Source of the DNA: an uncultured Rubrobacteraceae bacterium
Lineage (GTDB): Bacteria; Actinomycetota; Rubrobacteria; Rubrobacterales; Rubrobacteraceae
Direction of reading: 5' to 3'
NCBI GenBank assembly: GCA_902806105.1
Contig: CADCVI010000019.1
Location: forward strand, 1-17,173
Length of the DNA stretch: 17,173 nucleotides
Part shown: piece by piece, positions 7,980 to 12,648 of the stretch
How the letters are laid out: each line of letters begins with the position of its first letter
Numbering within the stretch: position 1 is the first letter of the stretch
The notes under the pieces: model-generated
The model's database searches: none
Seen by the model: only the letters and a program-made list of their open reading frames with translations
What the model was told of the DNA's origin: nothing
Position numbers and translations under genes: made by a program

Positions 7980-10900
7980 TTAATCTCCCGTGACCTCACG
8001 GATTACGACGACCCCGCCCCCGGCCTCGTCTTCCCCGGGGAAGGGGTGGCCCCTCGCCTCGAAGAAGGTAAGCCCGCCTTCCTCCTCCCGAATGGCGAAC
8101 AATACCTCGAACGGCTCCCCGCGCGAGGCCCGGACCTGCGGCATCTCGTCGAACGGCATGGGCTCGCCGCCCTTGTCGAGCGGGACGAACTTCCCCAGCC
8201 GGGCGCTCGCACCCACCTCCCAGACCTCCCCGTCTTCGAAGCGCCAGCGGAAGGCTTCGTTGGTGAACAGCACCTTGCCCTCGGCGTCCACCGCCAGCAC
8301 GGCATCGACGATGCCCCGCAGGATCGCCTCCAGGCGCGACCCCTGCTCCCGAGCCTTCCCGGAGATCTCCTCCGCGTGGCGGCGGGAGAGCACCTGGTCG
8401 GTGACGTCGACGATCTGCATGACGACGCCCTCGACGTCGCCGCTCCCGTCGCGCAGCGGCACGGCGGTGACGTCGAGGATGAGCTCCTCGTTTCTCCCGT
8501 CGCCGTTCCGGTCGTAGAAGAGGCCCTCTACGCGGCTGGAGAAGTGCTCGCCCTCCTCGTATACCCGGCGCACATGCTCCTCGCGTCCCTGCCGGGCGAG
8601 GTCCGGTAGCGCCTTGGCGAAGGTCTTGCCCATGACGTCGGCCTCGCGCCGGTCGAAGAGGCGCAGAAAGGCCGGGTTCGCGAGGCGCAGGAAGAGTTCC
8701 GGGCCCTCATAGACGACGATCCCGAAGGGGATCCGATCCAGGATGACCTGCAACCTGCTCCGCGCGGACTCGCTCGCCCGGCGATCCTCCTCCCGGTCGC
8801 GCGCCATCTCCTGGAGCTCGGCGCTCCTCGCCTGGAGGTCCTCGTTCGTCGTGTTCAGCTCCTCTATCGTCGCCTGGAGCTCCTCGTTCAGGGTCTCCAG
8901 CTCCTCGTTCGTCGCCTGGAGCTCCTCGTTGAGCGTCTCGACCTCCTCGGTCGACGCCTGGGCCGCCTCGGAGTCCATCAGCGACTCCTCGTAGGCGGTC
9001 TGGAGCTCCTCGTTGAGCTCGCCAAGCTCGCGGTTGGCCTCCTCGAACCTCCGATTTGCCTCGACGAGACGCTCGTTCTGCGCGCCGAGGCGCATGGTCT
9101 CGGCCTTCGCCCCTCCCTTCAGGGCCTCCACCTCGGCGACCATGGCATTTATGCGTTCTTCGAGGGCCAGGCGCTCCAGCGCCTCGCGGGAGACGTCGTT
9201 GACCACGATCATGACGGTCCCGGCCTGCCCCGCCTGGCCCACCTCGTGCCGGGGGTAGCAGTCGAGCCTCAGGTGCCTCGGCTCGCCGGTGACGGCGTCC
9301 TCCAGCACGAACTCCCCGGTCGACGCCGAGCCGTCTCTGAACGCGGCGTCGAGCGCCGCCCGAACCTCCGCGTAGGGGGCGTCGCGCATGGCGTGTAGGA
9401 AGTCCTCGCCCGCCGCCGCGCCGTGTATGGAGAGCAGGCGCCGGGCGGCGGTGTTGATCGCGCGTATGTCGTACTTGCGGTCGACCACGACGACCCCGAC
9501 GGGGATGTGCGACAGGCCGTCCTCACCCCTTGCCCGCGGCGACGCCTCGGCCTCGATCTTCTCTATGGCCGTCACCTCGGTGCCCGGGACGGTGCCGCGC
9601 CCCGGCCTCGGGCTCGGCAGGGGAGTGGTGACGGGCGGCATCAGGAAGCGCTCCCCCTCGCGCCGGTAGACCTTGTACTGGCGGCTCTCCGTCTCGAAGT
9701 ACTCGCTCAACGGGGAGACCGTCTCGGCCTTACCGAGGACGAGGCAGCCGCCGTTCCTCAGGGAGTAGGCGAAGAGATGCAGGGCGCGCCTCTGGAGTTC
9801 CGGGGCGAAGTAGATCAGGACGTTCCGGCTCACGCACAGGTCCACGTTCGGAAATGGCGAGCGCCTCGAAAGGTCGTGCTCCCCGAAGACGATCATGCTC
9901 CGTATCTTCTTTTTGATCTGGTACTGGCCGTCGACCTCGTCGAAGTAGCGGTCCAGCTGCTTCGACGAGAGCCCGCGAACGGAGGATGCGGAGTAGATCC
10001 CCCGGCGGGCGAACTCTATTGCCCCCTCGTCGACGTCCGTGGCGAAGATCCGGGCTTTGAAGGTCCCGAGGTCGCCCCCGAGCACCTCGGCGAGCGCTAT
10101 CGCCAGGGAGTACGCCTCCTCGCCCGTGGCGCATCCTGCCGACCAGACCCTGAGGCCGCGGCCGGCCTCCCGGGCCTCCCGGACCAGCCTGGGCAGCACC
10201 TCGGCCTGAAGGTACGCGAAGTGCTCGGGATCGCGGAAGAACTCGGTGACCTTTATGAGAAACGAACTCAGGAGGTTCCGGTACTCCTCGGGGTTCTCCG
10301 CGAGGTAGGCCCGGTACTCCCCCACGGTCGCCTGGTCCGTGGCGGCCATGCGGCGCTTGAGGCGGCGCGTGATCGTGGTCTCCTTGTAGCTGCCGAAGTC
10401 GACGCCGTAGACCTTTCGAAGCCCTTCCAGGAGGCGTTCGAACTCCCCCTCCTCACCCTCCGGCGGCTCCTCCATGGGTCCGCCGAGGCCGGCGAGCAGG
10501 TCCACCAGTATGCGCACGATCTCGTCGAGGTCGGCGATGATGTCCACGGTGCTCGGCGCCAGGGAGGCGGGCATCCCCCCGAACTCGGCGGTGTCGGGGT
10601 TCTGGATCAGCACGGTCCCGCCCCTCTCGCTCACGAGCCGGGCGCCGTCGGTGCCGTCGTTGCCGGTGCCGGTGAGGACCACGGCGATGAGACGCTCCCC
10701 GAACACCTCGGCGGCACTCCCGAGCAGCAGGTCCACCGAGGGCTTCGGCCGCCCCCTCAACTCGTTCATCATCCCGATGTGGGAGTCCGTGATGTCGACG
10801 TGCTTGTTCGCCGGCACCACGAAGACCACCCCGGACTCCAGGGGCTCGTTGTCCGAGACCGTGCGGACCGGCAAGACGCTGCGGCGCGCCAGAATGCCCT

Positions 10901-11054
10901 GGAGGTGACTCTCACGCTCGGGGTCGAGGTGCTGGGCTATGACTATCGGCGCGGGGAAGTCCTCAGGCAACATCGAGACCAGCCTGGAGAGCGCCCCTAT
11001 GCCTCCGGCCGAAGACCCGACCACCACAAGTTGCGTGCAAGGTGCTTCGGCCAC
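7980..11054 (-). CDS. CheB-CheR-PAS fusion protein
   Basis: About 1024 residues. A CheB methylesterase domain (5-190) lacks a receiver domain but keeps the catalytic triad S15 (GSSAGG), H42 (AQHLDPE) and D133 (GTGNDG). CheR follows: N-terminal helices (about 200-265), then a SAM-dependent methyltransferase (270-465) with WSAGCATGEEAYS and RNVLIYF. Next come a PAS domain (about 510-620), a long heptad coiled coil (630-780) and two PAS domains (785-900, 920-1024). It has no kinase domain of its own; the kinase is the next gene. Three GTG codons in a row are possible starts (11060, 11057, 11054). The last has the best spacing from GAGGAG (11060-11065). In classical chemotaxis CheB and CheR edit receptor glutamates. 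No receptor gene is here, so the substrate is unknown, and may be a partner protein or the fusion itself. Confidence 0.93.
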   Translation of the reverse strand: MAEAPCTQLVVVGSSAGGIGALSRLVSMLPEDFPAPIVIAQHLDPERESHLQGILARRSVLPVRTVSDNEPLESGVVFVVPANKHVDITDSHIGMMNELRGRPKPSVDLLLGSAAEVFGERLIAVVLTGTGNDGTDGARLVSERGGTVLIQNPDTAEFGGMPASLAPSTVDIIADLDEIVRILVDLLAGLGGPMEEPPEGEEGEFERLLEGLRKVYGVDFGSYKETTITRRLKRRMAATDQATVGEYRAYLAENPEEYRNLLSSFLIKVTEFFRDPEHFAYLQAEVLPRLVREAREAGRGLRVWSAGCATGEEAYSLAIALAEVLGGDLGTFKARIFATDVDEGAIEFARRGIYSASSVRGLSSKQLDRYFDEVDGQYQIKKKIRSMIVFGEHDLSRRSPFPNVDLCVSRNVLIYFAPELQRRALHLFAYSLRNGGCLVLGKAETVSPLSEYFETESRQYKVYRREGERFLMPPVTTPLPSPRPGRGTVPGTEVTAIEKIEAEASPRARGEDGLSHIPVGVVVVDRKYDIRAINTAARRLLSIHGAAAGEDFLHAMRDAPYAEVRAALDAAFRDGSASTGEFVLEDAVTGEPRHLRLDCYPRHEVGQAGQAGTVMIVVNDVSREALERLALEERINAMVAEVEALKGGAKAETMRLGAQNERLVEANRRFEEANRELGELNEELQTAYEESLMDSEAAQASTEEVETLNEELQATNEELETLNEELQATIEELNTTNEDLQARSAELQEMARDREEDRRASESARSRLQVILDRIPFGIVVYEGPELFLRLANPAFLRLFDRREADVMGKTFAKALPDLARQGREEHVRRVYEEGEHFSSRVEGLFYDRNGDGRNEELILDVTAVPLRDGSGDVEGVVMQIVDVTDQVLSRRHAEEISGKAREQGSRLEAILRGIVDAVLAVDAEGKVLFTNEAFRWRFEDGEVWEVGASARLGKFVPLDKGGEPMPFDEMPQVRASRGEPFEVLFAIREEEGGLTFFEARGHPFPGEDEAGGGVVVIREVTGD
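8824..8947 (-). repeat. 21-base tandem repeat coding the heptad coiled coil
   Basis: Degenerate 21-base units (7 codons) within the CheB-CheR-PAS gene, encoding runs of the pattern (L)-N/Q-E-E-L-x-x/T. This is the signalling coiled coil seen in many CheB-CheR-PAS fusions. The repeats lie between the first PAS domain and the last two, so they likely set helix register for signal transmission between domains. Confidence 0.7.
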
Positions 11055-11085
11055 CACCACTCCTCACGTATTGCGTTCTCACGGC

Positions 11086-11309: not shown

Positions 11310-11489
11310 GACGGGCACGGCATACAAGCCATCGGGCCTTCCTTCGGGCATCTGGGTGAGTCGCCTGGGGCCTTACCGGACGCGATCTTCGTCGTGGTGC
11401 ATACCCCCGGAGATGCACCGGGCGTGCAAGACCCGAGAGTCGACGAGCTTCGGAGCGTATCCCCGGTCAGACGAGCGTACCGTTACTAA
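11310..11489 (+). pseudogene. Decayed CheB methylesterase fragment
   Basis: The frame ending at the TAA 11487-11489 reads DGHGIQAIG, then a short spacer, then ALPDAIFVVVHTPGDAPGV, then SPVRRA. This follows the N-terminal part of a CheB methylesterase domain: the SAGGxxAL turn, the 'LPADLPAAVFVVLHxPP' strand with the catalytic histidine, and the 'GPLPVRxA' segment. The catalytic serine position appears replaced by D, no start codon or ribosome binding site fits, and the rest of the domain (the GNDG motif) is missing. It lies next to the intact CheB-CheR-PAS gene but on the opposite strand, so it is more likely a remnant of a second CheB gene than a duplication edge. The match is by eye over about 55 residues. 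Confidence 0.42.
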
Positions 11490-11490
11490 A

Positions 11491-11514
11491 GGAGGATCAA
11501 AAAGGACCGTAGTA
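11491..11514 (+). other. Strong Shine-Dalgarno-like sequence without a gene
   Basis: AAAGGAGGATCA (11488-11499) is an ideal Shine-Dalgarno sequence, but no ATG, GTG or TTG follows at a workable distance in a frame that stays open with sensible codon use. The frame beginning at ATC 11496 runs to a TAA after the first repeat copy; the second repeat copy breaks the same frame. It may be the vestige of a gene start or part of the RNA element that begins here. Confidence 0.3.
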
Positions 11515-11664
11515 GTGGTGAAGTAGAAGAAGGCCAGCGTTCAGGGGTGGTAGGTGGGAAAGGAGAACGCCGGCCTGGAAACCGTGGCAAGAAGCAGTTT
11601 GCCGCACGGGGGCAGTCCTGGTAAGGGCCTTTGTGTGTATTTGTCATACATAGTTCAGGCCATT
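11515..11664 (+). repeat. Structured repeat element, copy A (candidate noncoding RNA)
   Basis: About 150 bases, shared with copy B. It opens with GTGGTGAAGTAGAAGAA, then a stem: GGCCAGCGTTC (11532-11542) with GAACGCCGGCC (11565-11575), 10 of 11 positions paired, 22-base loop containing GGTGGGAAAGG. Next come the conserved CTGGAAACCGTGGC, a second hairpin (GGCAA with TTGCC, inside CCGT with ACGG), and a third (TGTGTAT 11634-11640 with ATACATA 11646-11652) enclosed by GGCCT (11626-11630) with AGGCC (11657-11661). It ends GGCCATT. The strand is assigned only for convenience. On the minus strand the first stem is followed by TTCTTCTAC, so a terminator role in that direction is an alternative. I do not recognise it as a known riboswitch class. 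Confidence 0.5.
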
Positions 11665-11841
11665 GTGGCGTTGGCTAGACAGGCTCGTGGCCGGGCGCGT
11701 CCCATTGTACCGGGTCTCGCGTCTTCGTGGCATACCGCAGTTGATCTCGAAGGATTACGCGGCATCTTGACAAAGCTCGCAGCGTCGTGGTCCACGCGGG
11801 AGGTTTCATGAGGAGAGAGCGAGGTAGCTCATGTTGCCCGG

Positions 11842-11986
11842 GTGGTGAGGTAGAAGAAGGCCGGCGTCTGAGGTGGTGGGAAAGGTAGACGCCGGCCTGG
11901 AAACCGTGGCGAGGAGTATTGTGCTCCGGGTCAGGGGGAGGCGCATGTGTATTTAGGTGCATCTTCTCTGCACAACACGGGCCATT
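11842..11986 (+). repeat. Structured repeat element, copy B (candidate noncoding RNA)
   Basis: Second copy, 327 bases downstream of copy A. The opening GTGGTGAGGTAGAAGAA differs from copy A at one base. The first stem is a perfect 11 bases: GGCCGGCGTCT (11859-11869) with AGACGCCGGCC (11887-11897), 17-base loop. Compared with copy A, the inner end of the stem changes from TTC/GAA to TCT/AGA on both sides, keeping all pairs. CTGGAAACCGTGGC is identical. The second hairpin is GGAG/CTCC, and the third is GTGCA (11957-11961) with TGCAC (11969-11973) inside GTGT/ACAC. TGTGTATTT and the terminal GGCCATT are also shared with copy A. It ends about 130 bases before the small membrane-protein gene. Confidence 0.5.
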
Positions 11987-12117: not shown

Positions 12118-12648
12118 ATGGAGGAGAGGTATGAGGCGGGGCGGGGCGCCCGTTACGGGTACTCCGGCGGGCGGGGCACGAGTTGGGTCAGCGTTGCGAT
12201 CGGGTGGCTCTCCGCCCTCGGGGCGAGCCTCATCCTGAGCGGGATCATCGGCGGTCTTATCGGCTCTTTCGTGGCGGCGGGGGCCGCGAACGGTCAGGGC
12301 GGGAACGCGACGCTGGTGGGGCTCCTGATCACGCTCTTCATGGCCTTCCTGATCGGGGGCTACACGGCCGGGAGGCTCGCGGGCCGCGACGGGACGAAGC
12401 ACGGCCTCCTGGTCGCCCTCGTCGCGCTTCTCGTTACCGTCGTCCTCGCCCTCCTCGGCGGGCTCGTGGGGGTTAGCTTTATCGGCAGCCTCCGTGGTGT
12501 CACCCTACCCGGTCTCCCGGAGGACCTTGCCCGGCAGGGCCTGAACGCCTCCCTCACGCTCGCCAGCGTCCTGGCCCTCCTCCTACCGTTCGTCGCGGGC
12601 GCGCTCGGCGGCTCCAGGGGTGCTGCGACCGGCGCGCGCCGGCCGTGA
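12118..12648 (+). CDS. Small four-helix membrane protein of unknown function
   Basis: A 176-residue protein with a short charged, Tyr/Gly-rich N-terminus (residues 1-20) and four hydrophobic segments at about 22-55, 62-84, 95-125 and 142-165. They are rich in Gly, Ala, Leu and Val, and separated by short loops (NGQGG, RLAGRDGTK, a longer LRGVTLPGLPEDLARQG). The C-terminus is a short basic tail. It resembles the TIGR04086/DUF3792-like small membrane proteins and the paralogous hypothetical proteins common in Rubrobacter, but I cannot assign a function. The ATG at 12118 was chosen for GAGGAGG (12107-12113) just upstream; the frame is open further up to 12067 without a ribosome binding site. It stands alone; a hairpin lies downstream. 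Confidence 0.8.
   Translation: MEERYEAGRGARYGYSGGRGTSWVSVAIGWLSALGASLILSGIIGGLIGSFVAAGAANGQGGNATLVGLLITLFMAFLIGGYTAGRLAGRDGTKHGLLVALVALLVTVVLALLGGLVGVSFIGSLRGVTLPGLPEDLARQGLNASLTLASVLALLLPFVAGALGGSRGAATGARRP

Follow-up and report, generated by a model that had tools for sequence, protein, structure and literature searches.

A conserved tandem pair of C-rich-loop elements in Rubrobacter-type bacteria, most likely small RNA genes

The window (the whole 17,173-nt stretch of DNA that was analysed) contains a pair of related elements between the remnant of a stand-alone cheB gene and a gene for a small membrane protein, for which only sub-cutoff Pfam matches were obtained (DUF5518, E 4e-4); a CheB-CheR-PAS fusion gene lies further to the left (Table 1). 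An earlier note on this DNA had described two diverged copies with shared blocks and a stem with paired changes, and the existence and approximate extent of both copies were borne out. Model R3 matches them on the minus strand at 11512-11593 (E 4.3e-24) and 11839-11915 (E 1.9e-21), the window copies themselves having been R3 training sequences. Two of the shared blocks exceed chance in the window: with up to 3 mismatches allowed, GAAGTAGAAGAAGGCC is matched three times (without mismatch in copy A, with 1 in copy B and with 3 at one unrelated site), against a shuffle mean of 0.14 and 0/200 shuffles with three, and GGCCTGGAAACCGTGGC also has three, exact in copies A and B and with 2 mismatches at one unrelated site (shuffle mean 0.06). 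The stem with paired change is present, with 12 pairs in each copy and one A-C in copy A when read on the plus strand. Two other blocks of that description were not upheld. GTGGTGA, at the 5' side, is not kept in most relatives, and TGTGTATTT lies at 11634 in copy A, 24 nt before GGCCATT, and at 11946 in copy B, 34 nt before it; being out of register between the copies, it is therefore no homologous block.

Table 1. Positions of the elements, their parts and the neighbouring genes in the window
Feature	Position	Strand	Remarks
Copy A, whole element (candidate small RNA gene A)	11512..11664	-	R3 match and alignment A5
Copy B, whole element (candidate small RNA gene B)	11839..11986	-	R3 match and alignment A5
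Copy A terminator-like hairpin	11531..11576	-	arms 11565-11576 and 11531-11542; loop 11543-11564 with UUUCCCACC
Copy B terminator-like hairpin	11858..11898	-	arms 11887-11898 and 11858-11869; loop 11870-11886 with UUUCCCACC
Copy A T-rich tail, TCTTCTAC on minus	11523..11530	-	
Copy B T-rich tail, TCTTCTAC on minus	11850..11857	-	
Copy A second hairpin (GGCAA / TTGCC)	11586..11603	-	less well supported over the set of copies (65% of cells pair)
Copy B second hairpin (GGAG / CTCC)	11913..11927	-	register differs from that of copy A
Copy A degenerate dyad, presumed 5' end	11635..11662	-	
Copy B dyad TGGCCC-N5-GTGCA-N7-TGCAC, presumed 5' end	11957..11984	-	putative operator or promoter part
Stand-alone cheB remnant, left of elements	11319..11426	+	tblastn: G038 cheB 47% identity, G031 41%, each E 1.6e-6
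Small membrane-protein gene, right of elements	12118..12648	+	start set by comparison with relatives; points away from the candidate small RNA genes
CheB-CheR-PAS fusion gene, left	7980..11060	-	Pfam CheR and CheB_methylest

Read from the right, the element consists of a dyad, a short hairpin, the linker GCCACGGUUUCC, a terminator-like hairpin and a T-rich tail. The dyad is clear in most copies of the tandem clade and degenerate in copy A and in the single-copy clade. The loop of the terminator-like hairpin is C-rich, measures 17-30 nt and holds UUUCCCACC, with UUCCCA repeated in the single-copy clade; UUUCCC or UUCCC is conserved in 14/15 copies, with UUUCUC in the third G032 copy. The first 8 bases past the stem on the minus strand are T in 62 of 120 cases and pyrimidine in 100, with a local T content of 22%, and T follows the stem on the plus strand in 4/120. 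Such a stem followed by a T-rich tail resembles an intrinsic terminator; the loop is long for one, and the hairpin is missing from the terminator scan, which takes loops of 3-8 only. From this layout, the transcript of copy A would run from about 11634 down to 11523 and that of copy B from about 11956 down to 11850. A sigma-70-like match at 11733-11704 on the minus strand precedes copy A by approximately 40 nt, and none was found near copy B.

The earlier note had proposed a comparison with Rfam and a covariance-model search of Rubrobacter-type genomes. The first matched no family to the element, with no gathering-level match in the window and only six weak, unrelated matches over the element region at E<=10 (best E 1.4). 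The second found further copies beyond the window pair. Of the 42 stretches given by a pattern scan of genome contigs, covariance model R2 (built from 15 copies) confirmed one, locus L004 of a Rubrobacter MAG (genome G001), in which two tandem copies lie ahead of the membrane-protein gene, as in the window. Searches of 39 Rubrobacteria genomes (the same set for order and class) by DNA and with covariance models R1, the first built, and R2 gave 13 strong copies besides the window pair (R2, E<1e-14) in 9/39 genomes. G032 has three, G001 and G030 have two each, and there is one each in G031, where it sits at a contig end, G033, G035, G036, G037 and G038. All 13 belong to the R2 training set and nine to that of R1, and R1 picked up the copies of G031, G033, G035 and G037 even though they were outside its training set. 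With stricter filters, R2 at E<=1e-5 matched 11 of 396 genomes spread evenly over the phylum, all within the 39; the family is so far known from Rubrobacter-type bacteria only. In a tree of 14 copies with moderate supports, the first copy groups across genomes (89/96) and the second groups with the third G032 copy (82/78); the tandem pair is evidently an old duplication of which both copies have been kept. The third G032 copy lies at L077:4360-4521 (G032:C399), past a terminator-like hairpin and the 3' end of what was identified by eye as an rRNA operon.

By tblastn, the surroundings form a block of lutB, lutA, a response regulator, a histidine kinase, the CheB-CheR fusion, cheB and the element, with members varying by genome. 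Ten loci were compared (the window and nine genomes, at E<=1e-4, which could miss diverged pieces), and in seven the element directly follows cheB or a piece of it (window, G031, G033, G035, G036, G037 and G038). Two genes lie between cheB and the element in G030, the contig starts at the element in G001, and no cheB piece was detected in G032 at this threshold. The cheB frame is fully open in G038 and open over query residues 23 to 352 in G031. In G030 it is split, and only part of it was found in the window, G033, G035, G036 and G037; the kinase gene comes next in G033, G035 and G037, so that a contig end does not account for the missing part there. The element is therefore retained in several genomes whose cheB is broken or partial, and would provide an example of a small RNA locus outliving its protein-coding neighbour.

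The variation among copies carries information on both structure and strand. Read on the plus strand, the main stem has 164 Watson-Crick, 0 G-U, 8 A-C and 1 other cells; the A-C cells are G-U on the minus strand, and since that in G031 stems from an ungapped fit, seven of the 8 are firm. In the minus-strand alignment A5, the main stem (12 pairs) has 162 Watson-Crick, 12 G-U, 2 A-C and 4 other cells and the second hairpin 44, 4, 4 and 22, respectively. Per helix, 98.8% of cells pair in the main stem, 64.9% in the second hairpin and 77.1% in the dyad. Over the three helices and 15 copies, 85.8% of cells pair, compared with 33-44% in slid controls, both sides have changed in 9/21 pairs and 23 cells, and 0/500 shuffles were as high as observed on any of five measures. 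For the main stem, 6/11 pairs have changed on both sides, with 0/500 shuffles as high; the stem cells come from related copies, are therefore not independent, and represent fewer events than cells. The covariation claimed in the earlier note from two copies thus stands, with paired changes beyond shuffles in the 15-copy minus alignment, and together with the lack of an Rfam family this supports its proposal that a structured RNA, so far uncatalogued, is under selection in Rubrobacter. Folding points mainly to the same strand. The mean z of the core against shuffles over 15 copies is -3.28 on minus and -0.99 on plus, and minus folds better in 13/15 copies, the exceptions being copy B of the window and the second G032 copy. 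Copy A as a whole has z of -3.98 on minus versus -1.16 on plus, and copy B -2.63 on minus versus -4.12 on plus, such that copy B alone favours plus. In the dyad helix G-U outnumber A-C on plus, counter to a minus-strand reading.

We consider the element to be real, conserved, new as a family and ordinary in kind, most likely a pair of small RNA genes. Each copy would be a minus-strand gene for a small RNA of approximately 107-112 nt whose C-rich loop acts in trans, a reading to which we give a probability of about 0.7, tempered in part by the plus-strand preference of copy B on its own. Two genes of about 110 nt would then be transcribed on the minus strand, away from the membrane-protein gene, each with its 5' end near the dyad TGGCCC-N5-GTGCA-N7-TGCAC, followed by the short hairpin, the linker GCCACGGUUUCC, the GC-rich terminator hairpin and the T-rich tail. 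The exposed C-rich loop UUUCCCACC may base-pair in trans with mRNAs at G-rich ribosome-binding regions and in this way block translation without Hfq, a mode of action that by inference would be like that of 6C/B11, RNAIII or CcsR RNAs. Hfq was not found in any of the 39 genomes, some of which are incomplete, and the loci would as such offer a concrete, testable small RNA gene set in a deep actinobacterial class without detected Hfq. Among the matches listed in a literature search on Rubrobacter and small RNA, as far as these entries extend, no title concerned Rubrobacter small RNAs.

Other explanations of the element have to be set against small RNA genes. The earlier note had thought of a tandem arrangement upstream of the membrane-protein gene, which could be a plus-strand regulatory leader such as a riboswitch or thermometer, and both copies do precede this gene at all four tandem loci (window, G001, G030 and G032), the only loci where it was found, while copy B folds well on plus. 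The gene was not found, however, in the fetched flanks of the single elements in G033, G035, G036, G037 and G038 (the contigs of the G031 element and of the third G032 copy break off next to it), plus-strand folding is on average near that of shuffled sequence, with z near zero or positive in single-element genomes, and the variation in the main stem disrupts plus-strand pairs and fits minus. The element thus lacks the fixed placement before a single gene type, with structure on that gene's strand, expected of such a leader, which is improbable. Of the minus-strand option in the same note, a leader or terminator ahead of the signalling operon, the choice of strand fits better than plus, as stand-alone small RNA genes and not as a leader. 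It is rather unlikely that the element acts only in DNA or at transcription ends, as a conserved terminator and operator region without a trans-acting RNA: the terminator-like stem and tail adjoin the 3' end of cheB and the dyad recurs elsewhere (27 matches versus 5 in a reversed control), but termination needs no conserved loop or linker, and the element persists beside a cheB remnant and in two conserved copies.

A small protein encoded on the minus strand, in a frame with QNTPCHGFQAGVLLSH or similar, is very unlikely. The frame from the dyad ATG is open through the hairpin in copy B, the second G030 copy and the first two G032 copies; against it, inspection by eye found ATA in place of ATG in copy A, an early TAG in the first G001 copy, a base missing in the second and a shifted frame in the third G032 copy, and the loop length differences are not multiples of three. 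Still less credible is a mobile palindromic repeat of REP or MITE type, the main alternative of the earlier note, to which the one dispersed G032 copy past the rRNA operon would correspond. Genomes carry 1-3 strong copies at a single syntenic locus, that copy being the one dispersed extra, rather than many dispersed copies. No related copies were found in phage or plasmid records, with 22-base chance-like matches in 32 phage records and none in plasmid records, nor in 22 viral contigs matching a loose pattern, none of which matches R1 at E<=0.1 (one viral scan).

As small RNA genes, the copies would join a recognised kind, whose mark, a conserved C-rich hairpin loop, is present in the element. 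6C RNA (RF01066), which we take to be the B11 RNA of mycobacteria, has two hairpins with C-rich loops. It resembles the element as an actinobacterial small RNA with C-rich hairpin loops, and differs in that the window copies each have one C-rich-loop hairpin and other sequence, two such hairpins being seen in relatives from G010, G009 and G026. The Rfam 6C model matched nothing in the window region at E<=10, and among the 39 genomes was over its cut-off in none and reached E<=1 in six, at places other than the elements; its control was weak (2/14 control genomes detected, 0 over cut-off, Corynebacterium glutamicum below it). Membership of 6C was rejected, with the model unmatched, its control weak and the two-hairpin layout not seen in the window copies. 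Either C-rich loop of B11 represses a target whose 5' UTR contains a G tract (PMC10470900), and 6C RNA has extra copies in mycobacteria (PMC9569102). The alphaproteobacterial CcsR1-4 or cuckoo RNAs and SmelA075/SmelA099 are homologous RNAs in tandem, whose loops are conserved while their stems vary, and tandem homologous copies are a feature that the window element shares. The CCUCCUCCC loop of rhizobial CcsR/cuckoo-type RNAs is termed anti-Shine-Dalgarno in PMC3927594 and PMC10253847; it is missing from the window loops, which carry UUUCCCACC. CcsR RNAs differ further in being processed from a ccaF1 transcript, one with a DUF1127 protein gene, and in belonging to another phylum, and no significant model match was obtained here, the sub-threshold CcsR1 match on a G021 hairpin scoring 18.2 bits with a cut-off of 65.3. 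Streptomyces scr5583 and scr1434 are also conserved actinobacterial RNAs with a C-rich loop (PMC3765725).

In six loci the 16S tail reads GGATCACCTCCTTTCT, and tandem-clade loops and that of G031 share 6-9 nt with it and single-copy-clade loops 5 nt. Loop-Shine-Dalgarno duplexes were no stronger than those with shuffled loops (energy P 0.38 to 0.98 over 15 copies), the longest loop-tail match was mostly no better than with shuffled loops (P 0.02 to 0.89 over the same number), and duplex energies of wider-set loops (n=15) gave P 0.23 to 0.75. No anti-Shine-Dalgarno mimicry beyond base composition was seen in these comparisons. Among 22 local target tests, lutB with copy B (P 0.0025 on repeat) and the membrane-protein gene with copy B (P 0.01) stand out; none of the local targets, these two included, is conserved in relatives, some start codons having been hand-chosen.

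The dyad, in the form TGGCCC-N5-RTGCA-N7-TGCAY, has 27 matches in 15/39 genomes versus 5 in the reversed control, of which 7/27 lie in the element. Outside it, 9 of 18 examined sites (of 20) have a likely same-strand gene start within about 200 nt downstream, judged partly by eye, and the dyad could be the operator of some regulator, or part of a promoter; regulators encoded at the locus are a LuxR-type response regulator and, in G030, a Crp-like protein. At L144 in G031, a dyad in turned-round orientation precedes a different C-rich-loop hairpin; recurrences in Rubrobacteria also include L078:7607-7664, L108:4911-5038, L146, L147 and L148. A sigma-54 -24/-12 promoter, suggested by TGGCCCGAGTTGTGCA on the minus strand, was rejected, as RpoN (PF04552) was found in 0/39 genomes, with detection in 4/14 control genomes, and this absence rules out a sigma-54-dependent (Qrr-like) small RNA for the 39 genomes.

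Several weak R2 matches have the same end structure with loops like UUCCCCCCUCCU; one inspected in G023 is without a C-rich loop. Model R3, built from 23 hairpins, some with C-rich loops, gave at E<=0.01 60 matches in 27/39 genomes, some by chance, 21 at training sites and 39 elsewhere; at E<1e-6 it matched 17/39 genomes, 15 of which had given training sequences, only G004 and G006 being new. Of the 39 non-training matches, 20 were fetched, and 16/20 have, by eye, a run of at least 5 C in the hairpin stretch, a count that is not independent because R3 training sequences partly had C-rich loops; of the others, G002 has shorter C runs only and G014:C291, G018 and G037 none. The exact pattern CCGGC-CCCCCTCC-GCCGG discriminates poorly, with 162 matches in 30/39 genomes versus 86 in 31 for the reversed control, and Rfam gave sub-threshold matches only on 13 wider-set loci. 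The window pair is best read as one subgroup of a broader collection of Rubrobacteria hairpins with C-rich loops. Rather unlikely is the broader proposal that these bacteria use class-wide small RNAs with C-rich, anti-Shine-Dalgarno-like terminator loops, several of them, with some protein genes, under one dyad-binding regulator, the window pair being the best conserved locus. If true, the wider set would be a lineage-specific translation-control network, and if it acts on ribosome-binding sites would show small RNA control without the Hfq chaperone.

Some further loci in these genomes are of note. Paired hairpins with C-rich loops, nearer the two-hairpin layout of 6C RNA, occur at L185 (G010), L229 (G026) and L235 (G009). 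A common AT-rich stretch around AAAAATACGTAA, possibly a common promoter, lies upstream of C-rich-loop hairpins at L178 (G015), L179 (G016), L186 (G003) and L225 (G004). A further hairpin type, in which the loop is TTCCCCCCTCCAGAT and the stems vary, may represent another family of small RNAs and was seen at G015:C1:2439724, G016:C1:1579329, G006:C28:1660, G013:C27:4734 and G027:C2:63427.
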